Origin: Cucumis sativus
Lineage: Eukaryota; Streptophyta; Magnoliopsida; Cucurbitales; Cucurbitaceae
Length of the DNA: 64,000 bases
Reading direction: 5' to 3'
NCBI RefSeq assembly: GCF_000004075.3
Contig: NC_026658.2
Span: 23,362,075 to 23,426,074 of the forward strand
Below, one piece after another: positions 6,930 through 34,611 of the stretch. Both the position numbers and the translations under genes were made by a program. The notes below the pieces were generated by a model. The model searched no databases and had not been told where the DNA came from. It was given only the letters and a program-made list of their open reading frames with translations. Numbering within the stretch: position 1 is the first letter of the stretch; each line of letters opens with the position of its first letter.

Positions 6930-9900
6930 CTATGCGAATATGTAAACTTCATCAAATCCCTTCCTACATTTTGCACATTAAGACGAAAAAAAGAGAAAGT
7001 TAGTAATCAAGTGATTAAAGGAAATAATAACATTAAGGTAAGATCTTATGAATAATTTGGAGTTACCCAGCCTTGCCGCCAAAAGTTGGGCTATAGTTGT
7101 AGATGAGATTTTCAATGACCTTTTGTGCAGGTGGTTTGTTCAATGATTTCCTGGCCTCACTATAGACACAAACATTGAAGCACTTAAAAGCAAGCTCAAG
7201 AAGCAATAACCCGCAATCCCGATTAAATTAGTAGATAAAACACCGATTATAATTACAGAGATTGATGGTCTGACTTCCTATACCACAATTGTTGAACTAA
7301 AAATCTCCACACGTAACAATCTACACTATGATTCTAATTACATGCTCATGCAAAATGGCAAAAAGACAAAAGTTTCAATCGATAGGAGAAACAAAAATTA
7401 ATCTCGAAGATGAAGACAAAATACAGCCTAAAGGTCAGGGACCAAATACTCCACAAAAATGGAACATAAAATATTTAGGTCCAATTTGGTAACGGTTTTG
7501 TTTTTTAAAATTAGGCCTATTTTCTCTCCATATCTTACAATAATTTTGTATCATTTTTAAATACAATGGTTGAATTCTTAGTTAAATTTTAAAAACAAAA
7601 CAAAATTTTGAAAGCTACACTTTTTTGTTATCAAATTTTGACATTGTTTTTTAAACTATTTCGTAGAGAAAAGATAGGGTTTATAGATTTAATTTCCAAA
7701 AACAAAAATGGTTACAGCAAACAAAATTTAGATATATGCTCTAACCTGACTAAGTAGTTGGCAACATGTTGTGTCACTTCAACCGCATGCTCTGTGTGCG
7801 GAATCACGGAGTAGCCCCACTCAAATGCGTTTTTCTGCAATGCAAGTATGTAATTTCAGGCGCTTGATTGATTTATACATCAACAAAGATCAAATGACAA
7901 GGTTATCAAACGCCAATGCATGTAGATTTCGCTATGGAAAGGCAGGGGATCCTACAAGTTTTTGTTATCACCTGTGCACAAGGTGGAGATTTTTTAATTT
8001 AATGTATCGATGAAAAGGCTAAATTACTTCTTTTGTTGAGGGGGAGAGTATTCCATTCATGTGGCAACTGGATGTTTAGCAATGATCCCTGTCTAGTCCA
8101 CCTTGCCACACACCTCATGATTAATCACTTGCGCAACTACTTATAATATCTTTAAAGAGTTTTCTTCCATGGTTCCAGAGCCCTCAGTGTTGAATTTGAT
8201 TACAATACAATCAAGTATATAATATACAAAATAAGCTACAGAAAGTTCCAATACTAGATGAAAGGAATAAAGTGAATAATAACCTCTGGATGCCATTGAA
8301 ATGCAGTCACAGGATAATGCCAAGCTTGTACAGAGGAGACATAGACCTGTAATAACCATAAACATAGCTGTAGGTTCAACTAAAATGTAGAGGTAGAGGA
8401 GCAATTGAGAGAAACTTTACAGAACGTCAATACCTTATTGTCTTTGTCACTACTAGTTGTCAATATCTGAAAAAATTTGGTCAATTCTTCATTTTGTGCA
8501 AATGTCTCTGGCGAGATACCAAACTGTAAGGAAAACAAGACCAATATTGGTACACTGATCTACAATCTGAGTAACAAAGGCCAAATCTGAAGTCCTTAAA
8601 CCCTACATTGCAATATGGTTCGTGAATACAAATTGCAGTTGAGCATGTATGCTTACAGAAACATAAAACTTGCCTTGGATATCAGAGTGAAATCTTAGAA
8701 AGTTGAGATGAACAAGACAAAGAAAACATTTTTCGGATGAAGAATTAAGCTGGATTCAAATTATTAATTCTTCTAAGGGACCGTGTTATTTAAATTTGAA
8801 TCTAAACATTCACGATACGCAAAATTATTAACAATAGCAATAGGATTAACCTAAACCCTTGCAAGATTAACCAATTCGAAAATCTGAAATCTCAACTAGC
8901 GTCAAAAGAAGCCAAATTCCATGCAGAAGCAAATTGATTTAGATATTGACAATTCATGTTGATTCAAATGGAAAATTAAACCAGAAATCCCCTAAAACAT
9001 GAATACACATTTCCCAGTACATCTATAAATTGAAGAAAATAAATAGTTCTTTTCAAATTTAAAATCATGAACAATTGAGTGATGTGTAAAAAGAAAGACC
9101 CAACATGAAAATAGCTTAGAGAATGAGACATTTGTACTACTCGCAGGAAGTGTAGGCCCAAACCCCTCCCACAATGTAATAATCTAAAAGATAAATAATG
9201 TTAAAGTTCCATGGCATGCATAAATTTATGCAGAGAAACTATTCATCTACCATCAATCAAACCAAAAAGAACTTACATAATGGTTTTGGAAAACAATACA
9301 ATCTGTACTCAATTTCTCCAGTAAATAATGTGGAAATCTACAGATAAGATCACAAATTGTAAGCCTCAGGATAAGCAACCAGTAAATAATGTGGAAATCT
9401 ACAGATAATATCAGAAATTGTAAGCCTCAGGATAAGCAACTAAACAGCCTTATAATAAATAGTAGTACTGATTATACAACTTCCTAAAAGAAAAATATTT
9501 ACTGTCTAACAAAAACCTGATTTAAATTGATGGGTCTCAGAAAAGTTGGCAGTTGAGACAAACATTTAATAAACCCATAAATACATTTACAAAACATTGG
9601 ATGCTGTTGGCAAATATGCAGGCATGATAAATGAATATTTAGGATAAAACCTTAACATTTAGCAATAATCAGTATTCTAAATGGTTATGGAAAACATTTT
9701 AGAGAAGGTATAAACAATCTGTTAATTTCTGAACTCCCAAGTGCGTGTTACAGAACCCTCCTTCCCAAGGATAAAATATTTCATAACAATAACACAACCT
9801 GCAAAGAATATTGCATACTGGTAAAGTAACATTGGCTGAGTAGGTGAGCATCGCTACCATGCCTTGTCTACATTATAGATTTAAACTACGACTCACCGAC

Positions 9901-12291
9901 TCCAACTTTGAGATACATTTGGCGATGTAAGTATGAAAGATGTGCAACTCTAAGCAGGCAAGCAAACCTTGAAGAAAATAATACATGACCAACAAACTGA
10001 ACAGTTCAAATGCTATCTAGTTTCCAGATGGTAGCTGCCTTACAACTGTACAATTGGTGAGGGAATGTACCTTGTATCTTGTCAGACTCAAAAGATTTGA
10101 AAATTTCTCTAATTGGAAGAAACAACCACGAATGGTGATACATACCTTTGGAAGACTGTTCCTTGAATATTTACATTGTCCACAAATTGAAGTGTGGATG
10201 CCATATACGATGCATTAAATGGTTCAAGAATGTTCCTATTCTGTAAATTAACAAGATACGAACTTTAGGTGCAAAATATTTACTCAATTTTAATGGTAAC
10301 TAAAAGCAATTTTGGTTGAAAATGATTTTATTCTCCACCAAACAACTAAGGGATCCAAAAGAAGGATTGCAGAATCCTTCAGTCATTGACAGGAAATGCA
10401 AAGAGGGGAAACACTATTCTGTCCCTATGTCCCATCCATCATTTAGTTCTCGAGATCATTTGTATTTTCTTTTTTAATTAGAGTTGCATCCATGAAACAC
10501 TCCTCTTGCAGGAAGTCGAGCTAATCGAAACTGTGCATGACATAGGAACTACTGTACTAAATATGGTAGAATTTAAAAATAATCAATTTTTACCAATAAA
10601 GCAGTGGATGCATATAACAAATGGTCAAAGAAATATTGTAATTGCTTAAATACATGAGGATAGTTTTTGCCCCGTCAGTGATCACTACCACAAAATTTGA
10701 AGAGATGAATGGATAACCTTGCTGATGATCATGCTTAAGATTTCAAAACCCAAGCAAACGCCATATAAAGGGAAACGATCTCCAGCATCATTCCTCTCCA
10801 AAATTTTCTACAAAAACAGAACAATAAGTTATCAAAACAATTTTCAACTTCGGCTCAAAGCAGTGCATCATTAGTAGTATAGTTGTCCTAGGAGTAAATC
10901 ACTTCCGAAACACTAGATTCCCAGATTAAAGATGTCTGCACCAGAGCTTGAATTTTTTACTTTGGACTTTGCATAATTAATTATCATTAGGAAAAAAGGG
11001 CTTCAATAATTAAAAGGTTAAATTATAAGAAGTACCACAAACTTTTTCCTTTGTTTCAAAAAAGATCCATATACTTCCTAAGGTTGCAATATTACTCTTG
11101 ACCTTCCACCATAAACATTAAAACTACCTTTGATATATAAATCTTTTAGAACTATGAATGGAAATTGTGATCTAAAATTGTGTTATCGTGACTTACATCG
11201 AAAATTTGGATGGTCACGCATTTTCAGGTTGCCACCATCCCGTTCCAAACCCCATTTTATGTCTAAGATTCTAAATGATTTTACTCCATCTTAGTTTATA
11301 AAGTTAATGGAAGTTCAACAGTAATATTGACTTTCAAAAGTATAGGTGTACCTTTGGAACAAGGGTATTTTGCATAATTTAGCCTAATCAAAATTAAAAG
11401 TCTAACATAAGCGCACTCACTCGGATAGCGAACAGGGCATATAGTTGATTCATGCCTAGTTTCCATGGGCTGATTATTAGTCATAAAACTCAGAGCAATT
11501 AAGATATAAGTAATTATACTTTTAGATAGAAGGCTTGAATCAATACTCCTACTATTATCCTGCTATCTTAAAAAGGAAACTTATGTTCATCCGAGATACT
11601 GATTATGTTGTGATATGCAAGAGCTTTTAATGGAAAAACGCTATTAACAGTATAATTATCTTTGAGGACGGGAAAACCTCAAAAATCTTCTGAGCAACGG
11701 AATAGTATAGACCCTCTTTAGCCCATCCTCCTGTGAAGAGCACTCCATTCACCAAACTAAGCTTCTGCAACAATTCCATAAGTACTTTAATTAAGCTCGA
11801 TCATCCATCCCCTATAAAAAATCGAAAAAACAAAAGTTACAAAGTTCTTAACCCTTTTTCAATACCTCGAAAATAACCTCAAGCGGCTCGGTATATATAA
11901 GCGGAATAACTCTTGCTCCAGCCGATTCGACAAACTTGACATACGAAGCAGCTATATAAGACGCATTCGTCGCGTTGCTTAATCTGCCGGAAGCACCATC
12001 GCCAGGGTGGCTAAGGATTCCGATCACCGGCCGGTAATTCAACCTCGGATCCATTGCTGTACAAGAAGGCGACGAGTCAAGGACAGATTGAGACGGGAGG
12101 AGGATGTTGGGGTAGGGATGAACTGCGCGAACGAGGCTAAATTCGAGTGATATTATGAATAGGAAGAAAAGCCATGTGTATTTGAAGAGGGAAACAGAAG
12201 ACGGAGAAAAAGGGGAAGGAGAAGAGAAGTGGAAGCGGCGGTTGGGGTGTTCAGAAATGGTGGGCTTGAAGCCAACCACTTTTTTGAACAT
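6930..12291 (-). CDS. GGH1: Gamma-glutamyl hydrolase, copy 1 (catalytic residues present)
   Basis: Ten exons on the minus strand: 12291-11866, 11764-11678, 10807-10718, 10240-10146, 9337-9277, 8523-8434, 8346-8284, 7834-7746, 7159-7067 and 6963-6930. All are GT-AG and total 1128 nt, giving 375 residues. A hydrophobic segment near residues 37-55 looks like a signal anchor or signal peptide after an unusually long N-terminus. Then come NYRPVIGILSHPGDGASGR, YVKFVESAGARVIPLIY, LYGVCLGFE with nucleophile Cys189, QNHYFGISPETF, and FQWHPE with His302. The enzyme (class I glutamine-amidotransferase fold) trims glutamate tails from folyl- and antifolyl-polyglutamates in the plant vacuole. It is the first of three tandem minus-strand copies and the only one with both catalytic residues. 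A 61-bp tandem duplication covers one acceptor (see 9319-9440). The next Met in the frame is too far downstream to serve, so the first ATG was used. Confidence 0.92.
7485..7725. mobile_element. MITE-like insertion in a GGH1 intron
   Basis: About 240 bp with inverted ends: TTTGGTAACGGTTTTGTTTT on the left, and on the right the complement of a stretch containing AAAAACAAAAATGGTTACAG. It is the same broad TTTGGTAAC family as the element in the GGH2 intron (19803-20067). Non-coding; borders are approximate. Confidence 0.5.
9319..9440. repeat. 61-bp tandem duplication across the GGH1 exon 5 acceptor
   Basis: Two almost identical 61-bp copies (9319-9379 and 9380-9440) start CAGTAAATAATGTGGAAATC and end GGATAAGCAAC; I see only a few differences. 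Each copy contains the first bases of exon 5 plus its AG acceptor, so the transcript has two equivalent acceptors (exon start 9337 or 9398). Only the one at 9337 keeps the GGH reading frame. Confidence 0.9.
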
Positions 12292-14010: not shown

Positions 14011-15933
14011 TGATAGAAACTAATTCATGCACAGCGGAAAAAGAATCGAATTTCTACCCTATATTGCCACAATTAACCTCTAAACCATAAACTAATCAAA
14101 TTAGGGTTTTAAGAAGTATTACCTTTGAAGCTTTCAAAAGGTTTGATGTCTTCTTACCAATTCTACCCGAGACCACCACTAGTACTCAACTGCTATCCTC
14201 TAGACAAAGAACCGGGTTGTGGGACCCAATTTTGGTGTAGAAAGTAATGGAGATAAAATGAGATTGGAAGCTTTCTTTTTTCTTTTGTTGAGATTATGAA
14301 AATGATAAAAGAGGCAAAAGTCCTTCAACATTTGAAAACATCTCTATTTATAGCCTAATTACATGCAAAAATGCATGCAATTCAATTGCCAAATCTCAAC
14401 ACCTAATATTCCACTAACAATTAGTGGAACTTAGTGGGCTAGGTGTCTATATCTCATATAGCCACATATCCCACTAAGAGTTAGTGGGATTATCCAACAA
14501 AATGTTGGATTTTCCCACTAACTTAGTCCAAGGGTAAAATGGTCATTAGATTTTTCTAGTCAAAAGTCAAACTTTGACTTTTCTAAGTCAAAAGTCAATA
14601 TTTTGACTTTTTACCATTTTGTCCGTCTTGACTAATTCCAACCTCCCGAGCATGAATCCGCATTCATTTTTCCAAAATTCAAATCACATTTGAATATAAG
14701 GCCGGTCAAAGTTTGACTTTTCAAAGTCAAAAGTCAACATTTTGACTTTTTACTATTTTTGACCAATTCCGAGCTTCTTAGTATGAATCCGCATTCATAC
14801 TTATAGTATGTAAAACATAAAGCTCTATTTCTAATTAGAAGACCGACGACTATATCACTATATTTGTCGGTTTCCCTTTCTTCTCCCAATTCGAACAATT
14901 CGACTTATTTCATCACACTGTTCTAAGTTTAATCCATATGAGCTAGCAGAGGAACCTAATGGACCTATAGATCATGGGCTCCAACGATTCAAGATTAACT
15001 AGCTAAACTCTTTTAAACCGAGTTAATCAACATTCGTTAACTAACGGGTCATTCCACTAAAGTCCCGTAGTTGCACTCCCCTCACTATAGATATATTTGT
15101 GTCCATTTGATAAAACCATAATCAGTAAGTTAATCCTTCACAGGTTGCTCGTAACCTTGGCTGGGTCAAAATACCGTTTTACCCCCAAGATTACATCTTG
15201 CTCCTTAAGTCCCACTAATCCACTATTGAACAATTGGTTTAAGGTTCAACCTATAAACTTAATCCCTCTCGGGCCAATGAGAGGGTGGGGCCCCTTGTTC
15301 AAGACTTGGATTCAGTGCTTAAGAGAGCAACCTATCTACTAACCCTAAAGCGGGTAGGAGTGAATTCCATCTTGTACCCTATGTTCCCAGCTATCCACCC
15401 GATCTTACCCCTGAAATGGGAGGCTTATTGGGCCAACGCTGATGAGCTGCCCTCACCTATGCAGATCTAAGGATAATCTCGTATGAACAGGAGTTCATAG
15501 TTAACTCAGGATTAAGACTAAGTTACCTAGGTCATCAATAATTGAGATAGTCAGTTTTAAACAGTAAACGGTGTTATAACGTAAAAATGACTAATTCATG
15601 GTTCAGTCTTATGTAAACATTTTACATAGGATGCCCCCACTTTCATGTCTCTACATGAACGATTAGGATCACCTCGTTTGTACTACAAAGTGGGCCGCAT
15701 CCATAGTTTCTCTAAATAAGGCGCCCAACCTTTATTTCATATACTATAGACTATTTAGGCTATATACTCGAACTTGATCCACGTTTATGTTTACACATAA
15801 AGTTCAAGTTTATTCAAAAAATAGCCTTGGAACTTGATTTATTGGATTTAAGATTATAATATTTAATTTCTCAATAACAACTTTATTGAACAGAATATGA
15901 TTTACAAACTACGAGTTTTAGGACAAAAAATTC

Positions 15934-15938
<5 letters not shown>
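14011..15938 (-). mobile_element. Solo LTR-like fossil, about 1.9 kb
   Basis: This 1928-bp block starts TGATAG and ends CCAACA on the plus strand, so it has TG...CA ends, and it is flanked by TATAT on both sides, a 5-bp target duplication inside an AT microsatellite. Read on the minus strand it starts TGTTGGAATT. No internal retroviral genes are present, which suggests a solo LTR left by recombination between two LTRs. It contains short runs built from GTCAAAAGTCAA and its complement (14560-14760). The matching place in the GGH2 unit (about 23130-23190) lacks it and serves as an empty site. Family not determined. Confidence 0.72.
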
Positions 15939-15972
<34 letters not shown>

Positions 15973-16428
15973 TATTACGTTTATTGTCTTAAACTTTGGA
16001 TTTAATTTGTATATTGTTTAGGAAAATTTTAGTTGCAATTAATATTTTAAAAATTGGTCTAAGTACTGTTATTGACTAAATGAAGTATATTTAGATTGGT
16101 AAATATGGAGTAAGTATCAATCACGAGGGATGGAAGAATAAAATTTTAATTTTTTTTGTTGTAATAACTAGTACAATCTAAATATGAAAATGGAGAAAAT
16201 ATAAAATTAAAATAAGAAAATAAGAAGAATCTCAAATTTGTATGCTTGCTTCAATTTTTTGAAATTTTGATTTCTTATGTGTTTCTTACAACTCCATCAA
16301 CTGCCACTATTTATAGGTAGTTTGGTAAACATGGGATGGGTTACAATATAACCACTAATATTGAGTATTTTATAAATACACGACATGAGTGTTGATGATT
16401 AATGGAATGACTCATGATGGATACTGAG
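15939..16428. other. AT microsatellite and GGH1-unit flank
   Basis: An (AT)n tract at 15939-15968 is followed by sequence that aligns with 23190-23330 upstream of GGH2 (shared TATTGACTAAATGAAG and GGAGTAAGTATCAAT). No gene. Confidence 0.6.
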
Positions 16429-18722: not shown

Positions 18723-21700
18723 CTACTGAAAAAGATAAACTTGATCATATCCCTTCCTGCAGTCACAATAATTCACATACACATATTAACTTAAATTAAC
18801 AAAAGCAACAAAATAATTTTAAGGAAAGAAAAGGCCGAGGGAAGGTTAATAAAGAAATGGTATTTACCCAGCCTTGCCATTGTAAATAGGGGTGTAATTG
18901 TAGATTAGTTTCTCAAGAACCTTTTCTTTTGGTGGTTGGTTTGTCGATCTCCTTGCCTCACTGCATTATTAGTTCAACCAACATACACCTGAGTACACTA
19001 ATTATATATATAACCCTTCTTTTCTTTTCTTATCTTTATTATTATTAATATCAGTGATATATATATATATATATATGGCCTATTTTCAAATATATATATC
19101 AAAATAAATCTAACCTGACCAAGTGATGAGCTATATGGTGTGTCAATTCAATGGCATATTCTGTGTGTGGGATTGAAGAAATACCCCATTCATATGAGTT
19201 TTTCTGCAACATTATATTCATATATTTTGTTAAGTGTAAATATTAATAAACATATTTGTTAGAGTTGTTGTATCAATGGAGAAAAATTAGTATTATTTAA
19301 AAGACAAATTACCTCAGGATTCCATTGGAAGATAGTTATTGGATAGTTTCGAGCATTTGCAGTAGAAACATAGACCTAATTACAATGATACGACCACAAA
19401 TAAATCAGTTTGAGTGTGTTCCAACTATATGAAGATTAGTTTTAATAGAGTTAATTTGTACTAAACATAAGTTTGATTGTTTCTAAAATCAATTAATTGT
19501 ACCTAAATCTTTGTTTTTAGAATCACTACAAAAAAAACACTCTAAAACAGTTTAAATAAGTATGATTCAAGTGGCATGAAATTTATGAAATGATGTATGT
19601 TAAATTACCTTATTGTCTTTGTCAACACTAGTTGTCAAGATCTGAAAAAAGTCCGATAACCTTTCATCTTGTTCAAATGTTTCAGGTGAAATGCCATACT
19701 ATATTCAACAAAATAATTAATAATTACCAAAATGTTATAGAAGTCATGATACAATATAATTAAAACGATGACTAAAAATAAAATAAAATGTAAAAGTACA
19801 GATCTCGTTGGTAACTATTTTGTTTTTGAATTAAAATTTAAGTTTACAAACACATTCCCACTTCCAAACAATTTTGGTGGGAGCTAAATTTTGAAAACAA
19901 AAAAATTTATGTTTTGGAAAGTTGTTTTTATTTTTAGAATTTGACCGAGAATTCAACCATTGTACTTAATAAATATGCAAATCATTGTAAGAGTATATGA
20001 AAAAAAAAAATAGACTAAAATTTTGAAGCAAAAAAATACAAACGAAATAGTTACCAAATAGGATCATACAAATATGAAAATTGGAAGACAAAAAAGAAAG
20101 CTCACAAAAGCAAAGAAAAAAGGGTTTGAAACTCACTCCATGGTCTTCCCATGTAATGCAATCTTCAGTGGCCCTTATTCGTAAGGAGAGTGGAACTCTA
20201 CCAAAGAAATAACATATAGATCAAACTCCACATTGTTATTCATTAATCAGTACTGTAGGAAATATTGTATTTAATTGTGAATCTAAAATTTAAATATGTA
20301 CAATATCAAATAATATCAATATCAAATATTAAGTGGGTAAGCATTGCTCAACTTATAACTTTAAATATGTACAATATCAATATCGAGATGATGAGACTAT
20401 ATATATGTTATTAAAAAATTCAATGGTAAATGTACCTTTCGAAGACAGTTCCTCTAATATTTGCGAAGTCGTTAAATTTCAAAGCAGATGGAAAGCGTGA
20501 GGCATTAAATGGTACTATAATGCCATATCTCTATAAAGAAAACAAAAATACATTATATATATGAAAAATACTAAGCATATTTCACAAATTTTGACTAAGT
20601 ATACAGTTCATAGATCATAGAGAAATCTTGTCCTAAAACGAATAGGTACAGCTCAATTTGCATTAAGATGGGTAGGCACACTTTCGATTTTGAACTCAAA
20701 ACTACCAAGTCATAATTAAAAGCAGTACATTACCTGGCTAACCATTGCGCTAATGATCTGAAAACCTAAGGAAATGCCATACAAAGGGACATGATCCCCA
20801 TCCTCATTCCTACTCAATATTTGCTGCACCCAAAATTAAATAAAATTATCATTTAAAGGAAAATTTCAGATTCTATAAACAATAAAATATATATATTATA
20901 TGAAGGATTTACCTTGAAAATTTTCTCAGCCACTGAATAATATAACCCATCTCTAACTCTCCCTCCTGTGAAGATCACTCCATTCACCAAACCCATTTTC
21001 TGCCAACCAAAAGAAATTTTGTTCTTAAAAGATCATATTATTAATTCATAATTAATCAAGTTTTAAATTTCTTCAACAGTATTGATTTCTTTTAAAAAAA
21101 AGTTGGAATAATTAAGGTAATATCTCCAACCTCTCTTCCACTTAATTATGCTTGGATTAGCTAATAATCATCGTTAAATTAGTTTAATTTTTTTCGATCT
21201 GCACGTTGTTGTCAATTCTTTGAAGGTTACTTGAAAGGTCTCGTATCCTATCAATGACGATGAATTGTCTTATTCATATATATATGGTACGTATGGTTTG
21301 TGTCCCAACAAAATTAGTCAAGATTTTGATGGATTTTAGTTCAACGAGGGATCTCTTATAGATAAATTTCCTTACAATGGTCAATGGTTTGATTTCATTT
21401 GGGTGAGATGACAGTGTAGTGGATATAATTCGTGTCAGCACAAAATCATTACTTTATTACCTCTTCGAGAACCTCAGGTGGGTCGTTATAGATAAGAGGA
21501 ATAACTCTAGCACCGGCGGATTCGATGAACTTGACGTACGAGGCCGGAATGTAGGACGCATTGCTGGCATTAGTGTGCCTACCGGAGGCGCCATCACCAG
21601 GATGAGAAAGGATTCCGATCACCGGTCGGTAGTGGAGCAAGGGATTGACTTTGGTACAAGTACGCAATTGGAGGTTATCTGATCTCTCATTGTTCTGGAG

Positions 21701-21826
21701 TTCAGAAGGTAAGAAAATGTTGTTAGAGAGAGGATTGTGAGTGATGGCTTTAACGAGACCGATCTGGAAGAAGGAGAAGATTAAGAGGGAAATACAGAGG
21801 AGATGGGAGAGAGCTGAATTGAACAT
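18723..21826 (-). CDS. GGH2: Gamma-glutamyl hydrolase-like, copy 2 (predicted pseudoenzyme)
   Basis: Ten exons: 21826-21461, 20999-20913, 20823-20734, 20530-20436, 20197-20137, 19698-19609, 19375-19313, 19203-19115, 18960-18868 and 18756-18723. Internal exon sizes equal those of GGH1 (87, 90, 95, 61, 90, 63, 89, 93). All are GT-AG; total 1068 nt, 355 residues, no internal stop. The start MFNSALSHLLCISLLIFSFF gives a good signal peptide; a slightly upstream in-frame ATG is not shared with GGH3. The family core PVIGILSHPGDGASGR is kept. However, the nucleophile motif reads LYGISLGFQ (Ser169 for Cys) and the catalytic His motif reads FQWNPE (Asn282 for His). The middle His (EDHGYGIS) remains. 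In this fold these losses normally abolish hydrolysis, so it is probably a binding, regulatory or dimer-partner protein, or has another activity. Which of these is not shown by the sequence. Confidence 0.9.
19803..20067. mobile_element. MITE in GGH2 intron 5
   Basis: About 265 bp with inverted ends: left CTCGTTGGTAACTATTTTG, right the complement of CGAAATAGTTACCAAATAG. It lies between exons 5 and 6. The same intron of GGH3 holds only the right-hand part (about 31215-31305), so the element was probably present before GGH2 and GGH3 separated and was then partly deleted from GGH3. Confidence 0.65.
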
Positions 21827-21900
21827 TGTGAAAAGAAACAATGAAGAGAATTAAAATAGATCAAGAAGAAGAAGATGATGAAATAAAGAAAGATATTGGT

Positions 21901-21910
21901 TGAATTTATA
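21901..21910 (-). promoter_or_regulatory. Probable TATA box of GGH2
   Basis: TATAAATTCA on the minus strand, 75-84 bp upstream of the GGH2 ATG. The same ten bases lie at 33171-33180, 72-81 bp upstream of the GGH3 ATG. Conservation and spacing support a core promoter; no transcript data. Confidence 0.5.
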
Positions 21911-23778
21911 GACAGTTTTTCTTTTCGTTTTTGTAGATTTGTTTGATATTATTAGATTTATTTATCATCATTTTTCTTGGGCCTATGTCTTTTTTGAGAG
22001 AAACTTTCTATATATCAGAAACAAAATGCTTTGTGGATAGAACTCCGTTGCATGCAGTGTTGTTTTGAAAGCTAATTAAACACAAAATCCTAATTATGAA
22101 TATTCTAAGTCAGGAGGGTTATTAGGATGGGTGCTGCTTTGGGAGCACCAAGGTCGAGTTCGGGTTGCTGCCTGCTCAAAGTTCATGAGATTAAGGTTCT
22201 TCAACCAATAGCTAATACTGTTGGTCTTGAAATGGAAAGGATTTTAACAATGGATAGGTGATGTAAATGTGTATCAGTTGATAAAAAATATGAAATAAGA
22301 CTGAAATAGTTGATGAACTGTTGTCAATGAACTCACATAGAGTTTGAATTTATTTTCAAAAAGATTCAAACACATATTAAGAGGAAGTCGGATTTTATTC
22401 AAGTTTTTATTATAACTTAAAAGAGTTGTTTTAGTGATAAGTTGCTCACTTTCTAAACTTTAATAATATTTCTTATATGAGTTAAGAAGCTATCCGATCC
22501 TCCGGATGTAGATGATATTTACCAAACTGGGTTAACAAAGCTGTTATTTTGCTCTTCCTTAGTTATTCTTTTAGTTAGCTACTTTCCACATAGCTAAAAG
22601 ATATAATTGATCGTCTCATTTATTTCAAAATACATTGAAAAAAAAAAAACTCATTTGTTTTTGTTTTCTAAAACAATTTTCGAATCATGAATCAAACAAT
22701 AATATTTTGTTTATTTCGCGAGGTTTTTAATACAAGAATTGTGGAGATGAAGATAAAATCTCTCACTCCATATGTCATATCAATTATTACCGAACAACTA
22801 AGCTCATTTTCATCCTCAGAAACACAGATATTTTCATTGCTTTGATTGTCTTGGATTATTTGTTCGTCGTGGACCATTTTTTTGTTTCCTTACTGTATGA
22901 TAAAAAACGTGCTTTAATACTAACGTACCTTCAGACCATTTTTATATTTATGTTGCAAACAAACAAACAAAATAATTTCTTTTAGTATAAACTTCATCGT
23001 ACTAAACTAAAGTCATATGTTAGCAAAATCATTGTGTTAATTGAAAACTAAATATAGTTCTACGAATTTAACTTTATGTTTGCTTTAAAATCATGATGGA
23101 TCTCAAATTAAAATTTAGGATCTAGAAACATATATAATATTATATTTCAACACATTACACTCGCTTATCCTAAAATTTGGATCCTAATTTATATATTGTC
23201 TCTAAACTTGAAACACACATCATATAATTACTATTGGTAAAGTACCACTATTGACTAAATGAAGTTATACTTAGATTGGTAAACATGGAGTAAGTATCAA
23301 TTATGAGGGGATGAAGAATAATAAAATTTTAGTTTAGAAAAATTGAAAGTTTGTAAGGCTATAAGAACAATGTAACAAATTAAAATGTGACAGAATCCGT
23401 ACCTTACTTTTATTTCTCCTTTTACTGTTTCTCTTCATTGCCTTCCATTATTGCTCTCTATCCTTCTTACGTTCCTCTCTTTCTTCAATCATTACCCTTA
23501 CTAATTAAATTGAAGTTATTACTTAATAAAAACAACTTTACAACATACCAAAATCTACTTATTTAATAAAAACAAAATAAAGCAATTAAAGAAAAGACAA
23601 TTAAGAGTTTTGCAAACTATCATATATATATATATATGTAGCATTATTTTTTTTTATAAAAAATGCAAATATAGCAAAATTTGTCAAAATCTATTAGTAA
23701 ATGATAAAACTAATTGATCACAAGAGTCTATTAACAATACATTTTGTTATATTTATAATTTATTAAAAATGTTGATTA
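21911..23778. other. GGH2 upstream region (triplicated unit)
   Basis: AT-rich DNA with no convincing gene. About 22690-23500 aligns with the upstream DNA of GGH1 and GGH3, without the solo LTR found in the GGH1 unit or the MULE-like element found in the GGH3 unit. It ends where the copia 5' LTR starts. Confidence 0.55.
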
Positions 23779-24432
23779 TGTGGAAAACATTTTACTAAAA
23801 CAGTTTATGGTTGTAAAAGAAATATAGCTAAATTTGTTAGTTTTAGCTTATTTGTTAACTAGAGTTTTAACTAAAGTCTTTGGAAAGACTATAAATACAT
23901 ATATCCTTTTGAAATTCATTAGAGAACTGAAATAACATCTTGCTCCTAAGCATAGTGGACGTAGCCACTTGCTAAATCACTTTAAAATCATGTGCTCATC
24001 TTCTCCTTCTTCCTCTCATCATCTGCTCTCATATCACCATCTTCTAAGATCAAAGGCCATTAGTAAAAACTCGAAAAACCAGAAAAAAAGAAAGAAAGAA
24101 GAAGAAAACTTGGAGAGCTTTTCTTAATCTTATGTAATACAAATTTACACACAAAAGGAAAAGAAAGGGGAAGGAAAAAGGAAAAGACAGTGGAGAAAGA
24201 GCCCACTGCGTTACATGCAAAGAGTTGTCTTCTTTGTGTCCATACACATGGCTGCCCCTACAAATTGGTATCAGGGTATGAGAAAGATTCAAGAAAGCTT
24301 CAAGAATCACATTCTTGATTCAAGAAACTCAATGATGGCAGTAGCAAGGTATGATATTGAAAAGTTTGATGGTAAGAGAGATTTTACCTTATGAAAAGCT
24401 AAGATCAAAGCTATAGTCGACCAACAAAAGGT

Positions 24433-24434
<2 letters not shown>

Positions 24435-24464
<30 letters not shown>
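24435..24464 (+). repeat. Poly-G tract, 30 G
   Basis: An uninterrupted run of 30 G followed by G-rich segments up to about 24815. It can form G-quadruplexes, but the run length is also a place where assemblies often go wrong. It lies at or near the left limit of the DNA-transposon fragment inside the copia element. Confidence 0.9.
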
Positions 24465-24465
<1 letters not shown>

Positions 24466-25848
24466 GGCTGAAGCTAATGTCAGGTTTTTTATGGTAATGT
24501 TTAGACCAAATTTGTCTCTTTTATATCAAGTTGTAGGTAACTATTATGTGCTCCATTGTCACTGCTTTTTGTTTGTATTGGGAGGAGGCTGGAATGAAGG
24601 GTTGAGGGGAGGGGGAGGGGGTGAAGACTAATACCAGATTTTTTATGGTACTGTTTATATTTTTGGTATAATGTATTTGGATTGTGTTTGTGTATTTGGT
24701 ACATTATGTTATGGTATTGACTGAAGACATATGTTCTGTATATGCCATTTTCACTGCTTTTTTATTGTGTTGAGAGGGGGCTGGAACGAAGGGTTGGGAG
24801 GGGGGCTGAAAATTTTATCACAGAAGTTTGGACACTCTAGTTATTCTTCTATAATCTCAATATTGTTTTTTTTCAATCTTACATCAATGATAATGTTCCT
24901 TAATTGCCTTTAAATAGCTTCAAGTAGAACCTCCTCATAGGTAATGTTCTTTAATCATACTCTAAATAAGATTTTGTTTTCTTACTAGGTTTGGAAGAAT
25001 CCATTTGGAGCATTGAAGCCAATATGGAGCAATTCGTTGACATAACATCTTTTGTATGGTTGGTAGCAAATTCTTGCTTCCAATGTATTGATTTTAGGTT
25101 TCTTGCTTCCAATGTCAATGTATATATTTTTTTCCTATGAAAAGTACATTTGAACTAAACAAATGGTTATTAGTCAATGGGTGTACGAATACTACAAAGT
25201 GTATCATTATGTATATATATATATTAAAGTGTTGACTTATTGTTTTCATATGGGTGTGATATATTATTGTTATTGTTATTGAAGTTGTTAGTGTAATAGT
25301 TCAGCGGCAAGAAAAACAGGAATTGAGGAATACACAATAGGGAAAAAATATCATAATATACAAATTTGTAACATTTTTTTTTCTGTCGTCAATACCGAAA
25401 CAATGACAATTAAAATTTTATAAAAACTGTCACTATTGGTCTATCCATGACATGAAAAAAATGTCGTACTATATTAATTCGTGACATTTTCATAACTGTC
25501 GTCAATATCGAATCAATGACAATTATATTTTACAAAAAAATGTCACGATTGACATATTCTTGATAGTAAAACATGTCATAATATAAGAATTCGTGACATT
25601 TTTGTAACTGTCGTAAATGTGTAAATGGTGACAATTATTTGTTGTCATAAAAAATGACAGTTATTTGTTGTCATAAAATACTAATTAATTACATTTATTT
25701 TTTGTCATGAAAACACATATTGTGACAGTTTTTTGGAACTGTCATAGATGGATTTTTCACGACATGCGATATTATGACGGTAAATAACTGTCACGAATTT
25801 TTTCGCAACAGAAAATAACTGTCATCGTAGATCATTTTTCTTGTAGTG
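24465..25848. mobile_element. CACTA-like transposon fragment inside the copia element
   Basis: The right end is clear: TTTTTCTTGTAGTG at 25848, the complement of the CACTACAAGAAAAA terminus. About 500 bp of subterminal repeats precede it, built from TGTCA/TGACA cores (GTGACATTTTTGTAACTGTC and variants, both orientations). The left part has three G-rich repeats around GGAGGCTGAAG and GGAGGCTGGAATGAAGGG. No matching left CACTA end was found, so the left border is a guess. No transposase was seen. Confidence 0.6.
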
Positions 25849-28767
25849 TATTTTCTAACATTTACTGATGATTACTCTAAAAAAAGTTGAGTTTATTTCT
25901 TAAAGTCTAAATACCAAACTCTAGGAAAATTTAAAGAATGGAAAACCATGGTAGAAAAACGAACTTCTAAACAAGTTAAATGTTTAAGAACTGATAATGG
26001 TTTAGAATTTTATAGTGAGGAATTTAATAACTTTTGTAAAGAACATGGAATAATGAGCCATAGGACTGTTAGATATACCCCTCAACAAAATGATGTTGCT
26101 GAATGGTTAAATAGAACCATAATGGATAGGGTTAGATGTCAAATGTCTAGTGGTTTAATTCTAGAAAATTTTTGGGTAGAATGTGTTTCCTATACTGTTT
26201 ACACCCTTAATAGGTGCCCTCATCACTCCATAAACTTTCATACATCTGAACAAAAATGGTATAAACATCCTTCTAATTTACAAAACCTTAGAATATTTGG
26301 TTGTATAGGATTTTCCCATCAAAGTCAGAGAAAATTAAAACCTAAGAGCTATAAAATGTATGTTCCTAGGTTTTATAGAGGGAGTTAAGGTATAGAGGGA
26401 GTTAAGGGGTTTAAAATGTGACATCCTATAGAAAAAAGGTGTATAACTAGTAGAGATGTGGTTTTTAAGGAAAATACTATGTTTATGCTTGATAAACGTA
26501 TTGAAACACTTGATTCAAGTTATAAGTCAAATGAGATTGAGGTGGAGCAACCACCAAACAATGAATCAAATAAACTTCCTAGTATCATTGAGGAAGAAAA
26601 AACAGAATCAATGATCACTTTGCCACTTACTCTAGAAGTTACTCAAGAAGAAGAAGGTTTATCAACCTATTCTTTGGCTAGAGATAGACAAAGAAGGACT
26701 ACTATTGTTCCTCCTTCTAGATATAGTGAAGCAAATTTTGTAAATTTTGTCATAAATGATATGAATCATCTAAATGATAATGAACCAAAAACATTTGATG
26801 AGGCAGTGAGCTGCCCTAATGCTAGACATTGGATAAATGCCATGAATGATGAAATGGAATCTCTCACTATCATACATGGACTTTGGTGATGCTACCTAAA
26901 AATTGTACGACCATATCTTGCAAATGGATTTATAAACTTAAAGAAGGAGTTCCCGATCTTCAACATCCTAGATATAAAGCTAGGCTTGTAGCCAAAGGCT
27001 TTACACAAAGGGAGGGAATTGAATACAATAAAGTATTCTCACTGGTTGTTAAACAAACCTCCATAAGAATGGTTTTTTCATTAGTAGTTCAAGAAGAGAT
27101 TTAGAACTTGAACAACTTGATGTTAAAACATTATTCCTACATGGTGATTTGAATGAAGACATATACATGAACCAACCACAAGGATACACTGAAAAAGGTA
27201 AAGAAGATCAGATATGTTATCTTAAAATGTTCATCTATGGTTTAAAATAATCACCAAGGTGTTGGTACAAAAGGTTTGATGATTTCATCTCTAAACTTGG
27301 TTTTAACAAGAGTTCTTATGACAATTGTGCATTTATAAATTCAAATTCTTACTCTTCTAAGGTTTACTTACTCTTGTATGTAGATGATATGCTACTTGCA
27401 AGTAAATCTAAAATTGACATTAAAAAGGTAAAGAGACCTTGAAGGAAGAATTTGATATAAAGGAACTTGAAGAATCTAAGAGAATTCTAGGCATTGACAT
27501 TACAAGAGAAAGAACAAAGAGGATTATGACAATAGACCAAAGTAACTACTGCTATAAGGTACTTAAAAGATTTAATATGTTAGACGCTAAGCAAGTTGTA
27601 ATTCCTATTGCACAACACTTCAAACTATTAGTTGCTAACTGTCCAAACCTAGAAGATGACAACCATGTTAAGTACATGGGGAACATTCCCTACTCACAAG
27701 TAATAGTGAGTATAATGTACCTAATGATTTCTACTAGGCCTGATCTATCTTATTCTTCTAGTTTAATTAGGAGGTACATAGCTAACCCAGGCAAAAGGCA
27801 TGGGAAGCAGCCAAATGGGTTCCTAGGTACCTAAAGGGATCTATGAATGCTTGATTAATCTATAAAATATGTTATAAAGAACTGTTTGAACTCTATGTGG
27901 TTTTGTAGATTCTAACTATGCTAGGGATTTGGATAAGAGATCACAAACAAGATATTGTTTCCTAATTGAAGGCAACCTACTAAGCTGGAAAGCTTCACTA
28001 CAACCTGTGGTGGTCTTATCATCTACTGAAGCTGAATATATAGCTCTTTCAGAAGTTATTAAGGAAGCTATTTGGCTAAAGGGACTACTGAAGGACTTTG
28101 GCTTATCACAAAAATCAGTAAAAATCTACTGTGATAACCAAAGCACCATTCATTTGTCTAAGAACCAACAATATCACAGTAGAACTAAGCACATAGATAT
28201 TAAATTCCACTTCATCAGAGAACAAATCGAAAAACAGGAAGTGGAAGTGCTCAAAGTTCATACCAGTGAAAACACAACTGATATATTGACGAAGGTAGTC
28301 ACTCGAACGAAGTTCCTCAAATGTCTTCAAACAATCGGGTTCATGGAATTCGAAGAGTGACTGCATCAAAGCTTTGGGAGTCAAGATATAAACAAAATTT
28401 TCACACTACATCTTTTAAGGTGGAGATTTGTGGAAAACACTTTACTAAAACAATTTATCTTTTGTTGTAAAAGAAATATAGCTAAATTTGTTAGTTTTAG
28501 CTTCTTCATTAACTAGAGTTTTAACTAAAGTCTTAGAGAAGCCTATAAATACCTATATCCTTTGAAATTCATTAGAGAATTGAAATAACATCTTGCTCCC
28601 AAACACATTGGACGTAGGCACTTGCTGAACTACTTTAAAATCGTGCGTGTTCCTTCTCCTTCTTCCTCTCATCATCTTCTCTCATATCAGCATATTCTAA
28701 GATCAAAGGTCATCAATAAAAATAAAAATAAAAAAACAGAGAAAATTAGGAAAGAAATAAGAAGAAA

Positions 28768-29800
28768 CACTACCTACAAATTTGGTCTTTCTTGACGCAC
28801 ACAAATTTTGATTTCTTGATGGTCATGGCAAAAGACCATTAAGAAAAAATTTTCTTGATACAATATTTATTTTGACGGTCATGTACGCTAAGAAAAGTCC
28901 CCTTATTTTGTTGAAGAAATACGAAAAAAAACATAAGAAAATGTGAATTTTTATTTTCTCGATGGGCAAAGTTCCCTTACTTTTGTTGATGGTCCACAAA
29001 CGTCAAGAAAACTATTTCTCGATGAACAATAAACATCAAAGATAATATATTAGTTGAGTGACAATGCCTATCAAGTTAGATACGTTTTCTTGATGAGCGA
29101 GACCCATCAAGGAATGAGTTTTCTTGATTTGCAATGGTCATCATCGAAAAAAATTAATATATTTGTTTTGGATTTCTTGATGTGTTTAGAATTTTCTTGA
29201 TGGGTCAGGTCTATTGATGGACAAAGAAAAAAAAGAAAAAAATCATGAACAAGATCTATCAAGAAAAATGATATTTTGATGAACATTGCCCATCAAGAAT
29301 TTTTTTTATAATTATGGATTTAGCATAAGATCATGGACAAGACCTATAAAGGAAATGATATCTTGATGGACATTGCTCATCAGGAAAAAACTATTTTTCA
29401 CGAAGAGTGAAATTCGGACCCTCGTTAACGGACTCAAAAAACAAGATATTCATCAATAATGTTCTTAAAAGCTTTACTATTTTTTTTCCAATTATTATTG
29501 TCTATACATCAATAATACAATATCATTTTTTTAAAAGCTAACTGTTGTAATTATAATTAGATTAAAATAAGTGGCTTTATCAAAATTAAATTAATCATTT
29601 TGTTCCACATTGATGAGTTGAATTGAAAGTTTGTAATTTAGAGTTTTTAAAATTTGTAGAAGCTAGTTATAGAACACGAACTTAGCTCAACTGACACATG
29701 TATATATTTATGAACACGAGGTCCTGGGTTCAAATTCGCACTTCTCATTGAGAGGATGAAATGAAGATCGAAACCAGTTGTAATTCTTAGAAAAAATGTG
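28768..29800 (+). mobile_element. Left CACTA-like arm beside GGH3
   Basis: Starts CACTACCTACAAATTTGG and carries dense subterminal repeats of the kind TTCTTGATGG..CATTGCCCATCAAGAA in both orientations. It runs colinear, inverted, with the right arm (39161-41962) for about 0.9 kb. It begins exactly where the copia 3' LTR stops. Near its inner end lies a tRNA-like stretch with an A-box TAGCTCAACTG and a B-box GGTTCAAATTC (about 29680-29740). From about 29800 the sequence is GGH3 3' flank. No transposase. Confidence 0.75.
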
Positions 29801-30213
29801 GATTATAATTATTCAAGGGACATTTAATTAAAAGGATTGAGTTGGTAAATGTTATAGAAAGATAAATTCATAGAGTTGACGTGAATAACGAGCTATTGGT
29901 GAAGCAACTCGTGTGCGATTTTTTTTTACCCATCAACTCAACCCAACCTGGAAGCGAGACACACCCCTCAACACTCCTAATAAAAAAAAAGAAGATCGAA
30001 ACATATGGTAAAATTAGAACGTAGGTGACATAGAAGTTAGAAGTATACTGTTTCTGATAGATGAAAGAAAAAGTACTAGTTTGGAATTTCCCATTTCTCT
30101 TTTTATTTCAAATTTATATAATAAAGTTATTCCAACATTACTACTCCTGAAGAAGACATCGATGGAAATTCTAAATGGTAACAAAGAGAGGATGCAGGCA
30201 GTAACCCATGCAT

Positions 30214-33099
30214 CTACTCGAAAAGATAAACTTGATCATATCCCTTCCTGCATTCACAATAATTCACACACACACATTAAGAAAAACAACCAAATTTTAA
30301 GAAAAGAAAAGGGAAAGGTTTAAAAAAGTATAAAAAGAATGGTATTACCCAGCCTTGCCATTATAAATTGGGCTGTAGTTGTAGATAAGTTTCTCAAGAA
30401 CCTTTTCTGCTGGGGGTTGGTTTATTGATCTCCTTGCCTCACTACATGCATTAAACCAACACACAAAATATAACCCTTTTTTTCTTATTTTTATTATCCT
30501 TTTAAATATAACGATGTCGACGTAAATATGATTTAAATGAACGAACTATTTTCAAACATACTAAAATAAATCTAACCTGACCAAGTGATGGGCTACGTGG
30601 TGTGTCAATTCAATGGCATATTCTGTGTGTGGGATTGTAGAAATACCCCATTCATATGAGTTTTTCTGCAACATTATATTAGTTGGAATTTATACCTGAA
30701 GCTTTAGAGTTGTTGTATCAATAGAGAAAAATTAGTATTATTTAAAAGACAATTACCTCAGGATTCCATTGGAAGATAGTTATCGGATAGTTTCGAGCAT
30801 TTGCAGTAGAAACATAGACCTAATTACAATGATACAACCATAAAAAAAAATCAATTTGTCATTTGTTCCAAATATATGAAAATTAGTTTTAATAGAGTTT
30901 TGTATCAAACATAAGTTTTGATTGTCCCAAAATCAATTCTACTTGAATCTTTGTTTCTTAAATCACACAACCAAACACACCTCTAAACAGTTTAAATGAA
31001 CACCATGGAATTTTAATATTATTGACACAAATATATATGGAGAGTAATGAGAGGATGATGTGTATATTAAATTACCTTATTGTTCTTGTCAACACTGGTT
31101 GTCAAGATTTGAAAAAAGTCGGATAATCTTTCATCTTGTTCAAATGTTTCAGGTGAAATGCCATACTATATTCAACAAAATTAACAACAATACAATTAAT
31201 AACCAAAACGTTACCCCACTGTAAGAGTACATGTAAAGAAAATAGGCTAAAATTTTAAAGTAAGAAGCAAAAAAAATGAAAGAGTTACCCATGTATGGAA
31301 TCGTTCTAATTTTAATATGAAAATTAGAGAACTAAAGAGGAAGCTCAAAAGCAAAGAAAAAAGGGTTTGAAACTCACTTTATGGTTTTCCCATGTAATGC
31401 AATCTTTAGTGGTCCTTATTCGTAAGGAGAGTGGAACTCGACCAAAGAAATAACATATAGATCAAATTCCACATTGTTATTCATTAATCGAAATTGTAAG
31501 AAATAACAAATAGAAACTCCATATGTTAGTCATGAAATATTGTATTTGTGAATCTAAAATTTAAGGAAGCTTCAACTTACTTGAAATATATATTTGTATA
31601 TGTATGGAGATGAGACTACATATATGTTATTAAAAAGTACAATGATAAACGTACCTTTGGATGACAGTTCCTCTAATATTTGCAAAGTCGTTAAACTTCA
31701 AGGCAGATGGAAAACGTGTGGCATTGAATGTCTCAATAATGTCATTTCTCTATAAAGAAAACAAAATTATATTATATAATAGAAAATAAATTATCTCAAT
31801 TCTTACCTTATAAGCATATTTTTACTATATTATTGTTGTTATCTTTTTAATTAATATTGATTTTCATTGAGTTTGAACCGAGTAAGTTTTTTTTTTTTTA
31901 ATAAAAAAAAGAAGGTAAAAACAGTACATTACCTGGCTAACCATTGCGCTAATGATCTGAAAACCTAAGGAAATGCCATACAAAGGGACATAATCCCCAG
32001 CCTCATTCCTACTCAATATTTGCTGCATCCAATAATAAATAAATTTTTCATTCCCATTCAAAATGAAAAATATGATATGAATCAAAACTATTTAAAATAT
32101 AACTTACAAAAATAAACAAAAAAAAATCATAAATAAATATATGAAGCATTTACCTGGAAGATTTTCTCAGCCACTGAATAATATAACCCATCTCTAACCC
32201 TCCCTCCTGTGAAGATCACTCCATTCACCAAACCCATTTTCTGCCAACCAAAAGAAATTTCGTTCTTAAAAGATCACATTCAATTCATAATGAATCAAGT
32301 TTTAAATTTCTTCAACAGTGTATTGATTTCTATTTTTTTTTTAAAGTTAGAATACTAAAGGTAATATCTCCAATATCTCTAGCTTCCACTTAATTATGTT
32401 TGAATTAATTTGTTTCAATCCACGTGTTATGGTCAATTCTTTGAAAGTCTCGTATCAATGATGAGATGATGTTATTGTTTCATTCGTATGGTACGTGTAT
32501 GGTTTATGTCCCAACAAAAGTAGTCAAGATGTCCCAACAAAAGTAGTCAAGATTTTCAACGGCGGACGATCTCTTATATATACGTAAATTTCCTTTTCAA
32601 AGGTGGTCAATGGTTTGATTTCATTGGGGTGAGATGACAGTGTAATTGATAATTCGTCAGCACAGAATCATTAGTTTATTACCTCTTCCAGAACCTCAGG
32701 TGGGTCGTTATAGATAAGAGGAATAACTCTAGCGCCCGCGGATTCGACGAACTTCACGTACGATGCCGGAATGTAGGACGCGGTGGTGGCATTAGAGTAC
32801 CTACCGGAGGCGCCATCGCCAGGATGAGAAAGGATTCCGATCACCGGACGGTAGTAGAGGGAGGGATTGACTTTGGTACAAGTACGCAGTTGGAGGTTAT
32901 CGTCTGATCTCTCATTGTTCTGGAGTTGAGAAGGTAAGAAAATGTTGTTATAGAGAGGATTGTGAGCACTGATGGGTTTAACGAGACCGATTTGGAAGAA
33001 GGAGAAGATTAAGAGGGAAATAGAGAGGAGATTGAGGAGGGAAATGGTGGATCGGCGGCGGCCATTGAAGAGATGAGAGAGATCAGCCGAATTGAACAT
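30214..33099 (-). CDS. GGH3: Gamma-glutamyl hydrolase-like, copy 3 (catalytic residues lost; splice site lost)
   Basis: Ten exons homologous to GGH2: 33099-32683, 32240-32154, 32022-31933, 31749-31655, 31438-31378, 31165-31076, 30819-30757, 30665-30577, 30441-30349 and 30247-30214. Sizes are identical to GGH2 apart from exon 1 (417 nt). The start MFNSADLSHLFNGRRRST precedes a signal-peptide-like hydrophobic run. As in GGH2 the nucleophile motif is LYGISLGFQ (Ser186) and the late motif is FQWNPE. The acceptor before exon 5 reads TTTGGTCG|AGTT where GGH2 has TTTGGTAG|AGTT, so the AG is gone. The next AG, 2 nt on, shifts the frame and meets TAA within about 10 codons; skipping the 61-nt exon also shifts the frame. 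The rest is open, so either the gene is recently broken or a truncated N-terminal product is made. CACTA-like arms flank it. Confidence 0.8.
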
Positions 33100-33170: not shown

Positions 33171-33180
33171 TGAATTTATA
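33171..33180 (-). promoter_or_regulatory. Probable TATA box of GGH3
   Basis: TATAAATTCA on the minus strand, 72-81 bp upstream of the GGH3 ATG and identical to that of GGH2, so the duplication carried the core promoter with it. Confidence 0.5.
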
Positions 33181-34611
33181 GATAAATTTTGTTATGCAGA
33201 TTTGTTTGATATTAATTATTGGAATTCATTATTATAATAATTTAGGGGCTTTGTCTTTATTGAGAAACTTTCAATCATAAACTAACTATTTTTTTGAAAT
33301 CCCTACGTGTTCTAAGTTTCAACCATTTATGTATATATATATAAAAATGAAAAATACTTTTGTGGATGGGAATCAGTTGCAGTGTTTTTTCAAAATCTGA
33401 ACAGTAAACCCTAATGATGATTGTAGTTAGGTCGACGAGTTGGGGTTGCTGCCTCAAAGTTCATATACTTAACGTACGTGTAGTAAGATTAATTAATTTC
33501 ATTGTTGAAGCAATAGCTATTAATATTAACTCGGGTGATTTGGAAAAAGTGGTAGTTTAAAAAAATTGAAAAAAATGGTAATAGGTAATAAAAGATGGGA
33601 GCATAAATCAATAATAAACTAATTGTGTTTATATATATATATATATAAAAGATGAATTTTGTTATTTTAAAGTTTTGATATTGTAAGCTTAGAACAAAGG
33701 TTAGAACGTTCTACCCTCCTACAAGTTCAAAATTTTATTAAAAAAATATAAAAAACAAATTTATAAACATGTGTATATATAATAATAAATAATAATTTAA
33801 ATGGAGTGGGTTCACTGACATTTTTCTTTTTCCTTCTTTAATTTGCACTACTCAGAGACAGAAAATTAAAAAAGAAAATAGTGTGGAAGAGATGCATTCC
33901 AATGATGTCAAATTAATTTTGAAAACATCCATTTTTTTCAAATAATTGTGTTGAAATAATGGAAAGGATTTGAACCCAATCAAGAGATATGAAATCTGGA
34001 GGTTGAATCCGAATGCTTTGGTATACAATTCATGTGTATTTTATGTTTTCAAAAGCAACGATAGGATAGGAACGTGTTTGATATACTTATTTTTAAAAAC
34101 AGTTTAATTTTTAAAGGGCAACCCTTGAAATAACCCATTTTCAAAAGCTATACATTGTTATTTTCTTTGTTTTTAAATCTTGTTTATAGAAATTATAAAC
34201 ATACATGGTAATATACTATTCCATTTTCAAATTCACAGACAAATTTTGAATTCAAATTTCAGATTTTTGAATGGATGGTTTAAAGTTCAAATACAAAATT
34301 GCTATAAATTTGAAAGTGTAAGAACTAAATTTATTACAACAATTTGGGATAAATATGGAACCTCTCATCTCAAATGTCATGTCGATTATCTACCGAATTA
34401 ATCTCATTTTCATATATAAAAATATTGATATTTTCATTGCATTGATTGTTTTGGATTCTACAAATTATTTGCTGCGGTCCCCTAACATCTTGATCTTGTC
34501 TGTCAATTGACAAACTTTTGTAGCGTAGATATGATAACTTGCTTTAATAGTATGCACCTTCGACCATATCTATATTTATAGTGCAAACAAACAAACGGTA
34601 AATTTTTAGTA
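33181..34611. other. GGH3 upstream region
   Basis: AT-rich, no convincing gene. About 34370-34611 aligns with the upstream DNA of GGH1 and GGH2 up to the TTTAGTA where the MULE-like element is inserted. Confidence 0.55.

Follow-up and report, generated by a model that had tools for sequence, protein, structure and literature searches.

Gene models and family assignment

The 64,000-nucleotide stretch of Cucumis sativus DNA analysed here (NCBI RefSeq assembly GCF_000004075.3, contig NC_026658.2, positions 23,362,075 to 23,426,074 of the forward strand; hereafter the window) contains a tandem array of three gamma-glutamyl hydrolase (GGH) genes, all on the minus strand in head-to-tail order, which are referred to as GGH1, GGH2 and GGH3 (Table 1). 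GGH is described in PMC5372827 and PMC6451014 as a vacuolar enzyme that shortens the polyglutamate tails of folates. Both catalytic residues are replaced in GGH2 and GGH3, and it is the fate of these two copies that is considered here.

In the spliced models, the lengths of exons 2 to 10 are identical in all three genes (87, 90, 95, 61, 90, 63, 89, 93 and 34 bases), and 26 of the 27 introns are GT-AG, intron 4 of GGH3 being the sole exception. Chance motif matches were rejected as an explanation, because each of the three genes is supported by a complete model, with matching exon lengths from the second exon onwards. GGH2 has ten exons, an open frame and a hydrophobic stretch at its N-terminus (LLCISLLIFSFF, residues 9-20), in agreement with the first-pass annotation, whose limits of 18723 and 33099 also proved exact, since the GGH2 stop codon ends at the former and the latter is the A of the GGH3 ATG.

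All three proteins exceed the curated cut-off of PF07722 (Peptidase_C26; 20.5 bits), with scores of 51.5, 40.9 and 41.8 bits for GGH1, GGH2 and GGH3, respectively. The best matched stretch spans profile positions 1-219 of 219 in GGH1 and 1-119 in GGH2 and GGH3. For the GATase profile PF00117 GGH1 scored 39.4 bits, while GGH2 (19.3) and GGH3 (21.8) remained under the cut-off of 22.8. All three proteins match zebrafish GGH across the mature chain; the score was 213.9 bits for GGH1 against entry 4l7q and 166.8-169.1 bits for residues 65-354 of GGH2 against the zebrafish entries. NCBIfam returned no match over its cut-offs for GGH1 and none whatever for GGH2. PMC6451014, in which Cucumis sativus was included, reports that the GGHs analysed have a single C26 domain and that their motif pattern is highly conserved.

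The genome (226.6 Mb, 88 contigs) was also searched with GGH1 and GGH2 as queries, the best 26 candidates being scored for each. No GGH locus was found outside the array among these candidates, as all 24 matches with GGH2 and all 21 with GGH1 fell inside it. GGH1 is therefore the sole partner found that carries both catalytic residues. A Pfam search of the genome missed the three genes of the window and gave two further PF07722 matches, on contigs C2 (141.6 bits) and C5 (39.4 bits), both absent from the matches of the GGH1 and GGH2 searches. Neither was accepted as a GGH: by eye the former, a 332-residue frame with GICRG and QFHPE, resembles a different class-I amidotransferase, and the latter looks like the amidotransferase part of GMP synthase.

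Catalytic residues

GGH1 reads LYGVCLGFE and FQWHPE, with C189 and H302 intact. Both GGH2 and GGH3 read LYGISLGFQ and FQWNPE, so that the nucleophile Cys has become Ser and the catalytic His has become Asn, as the first-pass annotation had reported. Each dead codon is one base apart from that of GGH1 (TGC/TCC and CAT/AAT). A degenerate pattern of the FQWHPE/FQWNPE type, with at most one mismatch allowed, occurred three times in the window, each time free of mismatches, while 0.02 occurrences were expected. The Glu that follows the His position and a second His column (H245 in GGH2), which we take to contribute to the active site, are retained in GGH2; the PE pair is kept, and the second His column is identical across all five aligned sequences.

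The Cys nucleophile is essential in the GGH family. GGH2 and GGH3 are members of PF07722 that lack both this Cys and the catalytic His, and judging from its residues GGH2 is probably catalytically inactive. As a family member with neither of the two catalytic residues, GGH2 does not merit the name of GGH enzyme. GGH2 combines the catalytic loss with an intact gene, as expected of a pseudoenzyme, and GGH3 carries a CG acceptor at intron 4.

The first-pass annotation needs two corrections. First, its claim that the paralogues kept the rest of the protein is too strong: among 87 family-invariant sites (identical in GGH1, zebrafish and human), 15 have changed in the two copies alike, C189S, H302N, E193Q and F183V among them, none in GGH2 only and one in GGH3 only. 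In exon 5, moreover, only 6 of 20 residues (30%) are identical between GGH2 and GGH1 (p=0.007), a post hoc comparison given little weight. Second, GGH3 is more damaged than had been noticed, as its full frame requires the CG acceptor. Splicing at the nearest AG, 2 nt into exon 5, would shift the frame and bring a stop after 239 aa. Another AG 24 nt into exon 5 would keep the frame at the cost of 8 residues, and joint skipping of exons 4 and 5 likewise preserves it. Because such in-frame ways round the lost acceptor exist, GGH3 is probably, and not certainly, broken; it probably represents a recent or ongoing loss.

Table 1. Features of the GGH array and of the rest of the window (positions counted from the first base of the window)
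Feature	Position	Strand	Remarks
GGH1	6930..12291	-	gamma-glutamyl hydrolase, apparently catalytic; 375 aa in 10 exons, frame open, introns GT-AG 9/9
GGH1 exons	11866-12291, 11678-11764, 10718-10807, 10146-10240, 9277-9337, 8434-8523, 8284-8346, 7746-7834, 7067-7159, 6930-6963	-	spliced model
GGH1 Cys189 codon TGC	10754..10756	-	catalytic Cys
GGH1 His302 codon CAT	8290..8292	-	catalytic His
GGH2	18723..21826	-	dead-site paralogue; 10 exons, 355 aa, frame open, introns GT-AG 9/9
GGH2 exons	21461-21826, 20913-20999, 20734-20823, 20436-20530, 20137-20197, 19609-19698, 19313-19375, 19115-19203, 18868-18960, 18723-18756	-	spliced model
GGH2 Ser169 codon TCC	20770..20772	-	replaces Cys nucleophile (G-I-S-L-G)
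GGH2 Asn282 codon AAT	19319..19321	-	replaces catalytic His; same residue in zebrafish GGH entries 4l8w/4l95
TATA-like motif TATAAATT	21903..21910	-	upstream of GGH2; identical eight letters at 33173-33180 upstream of GGH3
GGH3	30214..33099	-	dead-site paralogue; 10 homologous exons; full 372-aa frame requires use of CG acceptor
GGH3 exons	32683-33099, 32154-32240, 31933-32022, 31655-31749, 31378-31438, 31076-31165, 30757-30819, 30577-30665, 30349-30441, 30214-30247	-	spliced model
GGH3 Ser186 codon TCC	31969..31971	-	replaces Cys
GGH3 Asn299 codon AAT	30763..30765	-	replaces His
GGH3 intron-4 acceptor	31439..31440	-	CG instead of AG
Blocks upstream of GGH1	13562-13706, 13773-13917, 15984-16152		non-coding
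Blocks upstream of GGH2	22726-22857, 22903-23052, 23165-23335		non-coding
Blocks upstream of GGH3	34330-34492, 34536-34596, 37607-37641		non-coding
Apparent insert	13982-15969		TA-rich repeats at borders
Copia-like retrotransposon	23774-28767		between GGH2 and GGH3; by eye
Retrotransposon end repeats	23774-24107, 28425-28767		85% identical
30-G run	24435-24464		within the retrotransposon
PP2C-type phosphatase-like frame	43375-44214	-	by eye; intronless, 279 aa
Broken fragment	about 45036-45370	+	3 stops in the frame tried
Tandem duplication	47556-49529, 52508-54801		two adjoining frames (161 aa; 311/303 aa)

Selective constraint after the loss

The simplest reading of the shared Ser/Asn state is that GGH2 and GGH3 inherited it from their common ancestor. 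The two copies are 93.2% identical in exons, compared with 75.5% in introns and 69-73% in the near flanks. Over 355 codons the synonymous divergence (dS) is 0.174 and the nonsynonymous divergence (dN) 0.044, giving a dN/dS of 0.253. A three-taxon codon model (GGH1, GGH2, GGH3) was written for this analysis; codons with gaps are skipped, so that the whole protein is represented by 346 of 386 alignment columns and the core by 289. It gave a branch dN/dS (omega) of 0.315 for GGH2 and 0.231 for GGH3. When both branches were forced to be neutral, the model was rejected, with twice the log-likelihood difference (2dlnL) amounting to 24.5 for the whole protein and 24.7 for the core. With omega fixed at 1 on the GGH2 branch only, the values were 3.97 and 5.56, which places omega below 1 at the 5% level; interpolated profile limits are approximately 0.14-0.97 for the whole protein and 0.12-0.75 for the core. 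The GGH3 branch was indistinguishable from neutral (2.10 and 1.50). The pairwise dN/dS between GGH1 and the other two copies (0.24-0.26) lies close to saturation and did not serve to date the loss.

The distribution of amino acid differences points in the same direction. The core of 289 residues contains 72 family-invariant sites that are still kept by at least one of GGH2 and GGH3, and only 1 of the 26 core differences between the two falls on them, while 6.5 were expected (P=0.004). By branch, 10 of these differences were assigned to GGH2 and 5 to GGH3, the other 11 not being assignable. Constraint on the protein after the shared catalytic loss, in the form of purifying selection, is thus supported, the support being weak for GGH2 alone, and selection seems to have preserved at least one of the dead copies in the form of a non-catalytic protein. 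The maintenance of GGH2 proposed in the first-pass annotation, with a dN/dS below 1 expected on its lineage, is partly supported by the estimates (0.315 on the branch, 0.253 between the two copies; for the whole protein 2dlnL 3.97, upper limit about 0.97).

Several observations weigh against maintenance. The test on GGH2 alone is barely significant, and it depends on three sequences, of which the outgroup is close to saturation (dS 1.1-1.2). The dead-site lineage is also changing faster in protein than GGH1. With zebrafish as outgroup, unique changes number 24 in GGH2 versus 9 in GGH1 (p=0.014) and 26 in GGH3 versus 10 in GGH1 (p=0.011); the corresponding counts with human as outgroup are 23 versus 11 (p=0.058) and 22 versus 12 (p=0.12). 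In addition, the broken acceptor of GGH3 shows that the lineage tolerates loss.

One alternative is simple decay, according to which the second lineage is functionless and GGH2 and GGH3 are eroding pseudogenes or unexpressed, GGH3 being further along. The CG acceptor, the neutral-like GGH3 branch and the faster protein change are what such a process would leave behind. However, decay of both copies conflicts with the rejection of the model with two neutral branches, with the GGH2 omega below 1, with exon conservation far above that of introns and the avoidance of family-invariant sites, and with ten GGH2 exons free of any frame or splice-site defect. We therefore regard decay as unlikely, although it is an alternative to be taken seriously, and a retained pseudoenzyme as the more likely explanation for GGH2.

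Possible roles of GGH2

The first-pass annotation had put forward polyglutamate binding, modulation of GGH1 and a new function as candidate roles. GGH is a dimer, and tomato GGHs reportedly form heterodimers (Akhtar et al. 2008, Plant Physiol 148:775). The homodimer of tomato LeGGH3 is said to be inactive and to halve the activity of its partner in mixed dimers. Our tentative preference, which falls somewhat short of even odds, is that GGH2 is a selectively kept vacuolar or secretory pseudoenzyme acting through pairing with GGH1. An old tandem duplication would have given rise to GGH1 and a second lineage; the latter would have lost both catalytic residues (Cys to Ser, His to Asn) and later been duplicated into GGH2 and GGH3. 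Purifying selection would subsequently have maintained GGH2 as a secretory or vacuolar protein of the GGH fold incapable of hydrolysis; its intact frame and splice sites, its hydrophobic leader and the TATA-like motif upstream count in favour of this. Where the two are co-produced, GGH2 and GGH1 may associate in mixed dimers that have a single working site; this would lower GGH1 activity and thereby protect vacuolar folate polyglutamates. Pairing with GGH1 appears to be the simplest use for a protein that keeps its leader, the fold profile, the second His and the Glu after the catalytic His position and is devoid of nucleophile and base; that GGH2 is expressed, resides in the vacuole, dimerises with GGH1 and affects folate is in each case a prediction.

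LeGGH3 is reportedly likewise a plant GGH paralogue with an inactive homodimer that exists beside active paralogues. In the cucumber array both the nucleophile and the His are replaced, the replacement is common to two copies, and the genome searches found a single GGH gene that retains the two residues. Dead or regulatory paralogues in plant B-vitamin pathways also include DHFR-TS3 of Brassicaceae and the Arabidopsis pseudoenzyme PDX1.2, although these have different folds and act at different pathway steps. DHFR-TS3 is presented as an inactive DHFR-TS of Brassicaceae (PMC5897740) and inactive DHFR-TS homologues of this family are stated to inhibit the active ones (PMC6451014). GGH2 joins this known kind of dead paralogue in plant vitamin pathways, together with DHFR-TS, PDX1.2 and LeGGH3. 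A non-catalytic role of GGH was looked for by term in PMC12622440 and not found, and none of the matches listed in the open-licence literature was a report on these cucumber genes, which does not exclude one in print.

GGH sets the length of the folate tail and hence folate retention in plants. According to PMC5372827, which cites Akhtar 2010, reduced GGH expression in tomato raised folate by 37%, while overexpression lowered it by 40%. If the proposed role is true, a natural dead GGH next to what seems to be the sole active gene would offer a regulator or binder ready for use, and it would be relevant to the persistence of polyglutamates in vacuoles rich in GGH. With one gene active and the other dead but intact, the array also lends itself to a clean genetic test.

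A second possible role is that of a ligand-binding pseudoenzyme, in which a putative GGH2 homodimer binds polyglutamates of folate or of para-aminobenzoylglutamate (pABA-Glu) uncut, stabilising or storing them in the vacuole. The zebrafish GGH entries (4l7q; 4l8w and 4l95 with QWNPE; 4l8f and 4l8y with GTALGF) belong to the same family as GGH2 over the mature chain. The Asn that replaces His in GGH2 is identical to the residue at this position in 4l8w and 4l95, and the other pair, 4l8f and 4l8y, carries Ala for Cys. Both pairs are reportedly engineered mutants crystallised with methotrexate polyglutamates. They would thus carry single changes in an active enzyme, while those of GGH2 and GGH3 are natural double changes. 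The retention of H245 and of the Glu after the His position is also in favour of a binder, as is the finding that exons 3 and 7 differ between GGH2 and GGH3 at 3 of 153 bases versus 44 of 549 in the other exons from 2 to 10 (p=0.006), a post hoc contrast of little weight. Furthermore, PMC5372827 states that vacuolar polyglutamates persist despite very high GGH activity and that a plant folate-binding protein has yet to be demonstrated, both of which would suit such a role. However, silent changes are also sparse in exons 3 and 7, which carry the dead residues (1 of 51 codons versus 33 of 304 elsewhere, p=0.04), so that protein-level selection is not the sole reading of their similarity, and family residues near the dead ones are also altered (E193Q, F183V), in addition to the low identity of exon 5 to GGH1. 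A binding role of this kind is in our opinion rather improbable. Slightly more doubtful still is its boldest form, in which GGH2 would be the missing plant folate-polyglutamate-binding protein, a substrate-trapping former hydrolase that shields vacuolar polyglutamyl folates from GGH1, the product of the neighbouring gene.

The similarity of exons 3 and 7 also raises the question of whether GGH2 and GGH3 died separately or the dead residues were spread by gene conversion, in which case the constraint would partly predate the loss. Although the few silent changes leave room for conversion of exon size, the introns beside exon 3 (34% and 41% divergence between GGH2 and GGH3) and exon 7 (24% and 18%) are as diverged as the other five (18-28%), and the longest identical run in exons 2-10 (62) does not exceed that of shuffled data (mean 62.6). 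Because the introns flanking both exons are no less diverged and there is no long identical run, loss before the split of GGH2 and GGH3 is preferred, as the first-pass annotation had suggested, and separate death or conversion is quite improbable.

Finally, GGH2 is very unlikely to be a recruited enzyme, that is, a new hydrolase with Ser as nucleophile in a G-x-S-x-G elbow plus another base: G-I-S-L-G and H245 fit such an enzyme, and Ser-nucleophile families exist in the same clan (dipeptidase E, cyanophycinase), but the His expected to activate the Ser is Asn, and the PF00117 scores of GGH2 and GGH3 lie under the cut-off. A clan PC serine hydrolase (S51-like) is defined by Ser in G-x-S-x-G together with a catalytic His, and only the Ser is present here.

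Other features of the window

Non-coding blocks occur upstream of each GGH gene in a common order, with pairwise identities of 74-93% over 29-174 bases, despite a coding dS of about 1.2 between GGH1 and GGH2. Five of the six genome matches of the GGH2 upstream stretch lie in the array, and the sixth is a 43-base match on contig C3. The blocks may be conserved elements, or spacers may have been exchanged or duplicated at a later time. The second block of GGH1 is separated from the third by what by eye is an insert. The coding sequence of the Copia-like long terminal repeat (LTR) retrotransposon is degraded, and the identity of its end repeats suggests that it was inserted after the split of GGH2 and GGH3, if rates are similar. 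Its 30-G run is possibly an artefact of assembly or repeat slippage.

The intronless frame resembling a PP2C-type phosphatase had no Pfam match, and the broken fragment beside it, in the opposite orientation, shares similar words by eye. The members of the tandem duplication are 96% and 98% identical in DNA for the two frames, and the two frames tested had no Pfam match.

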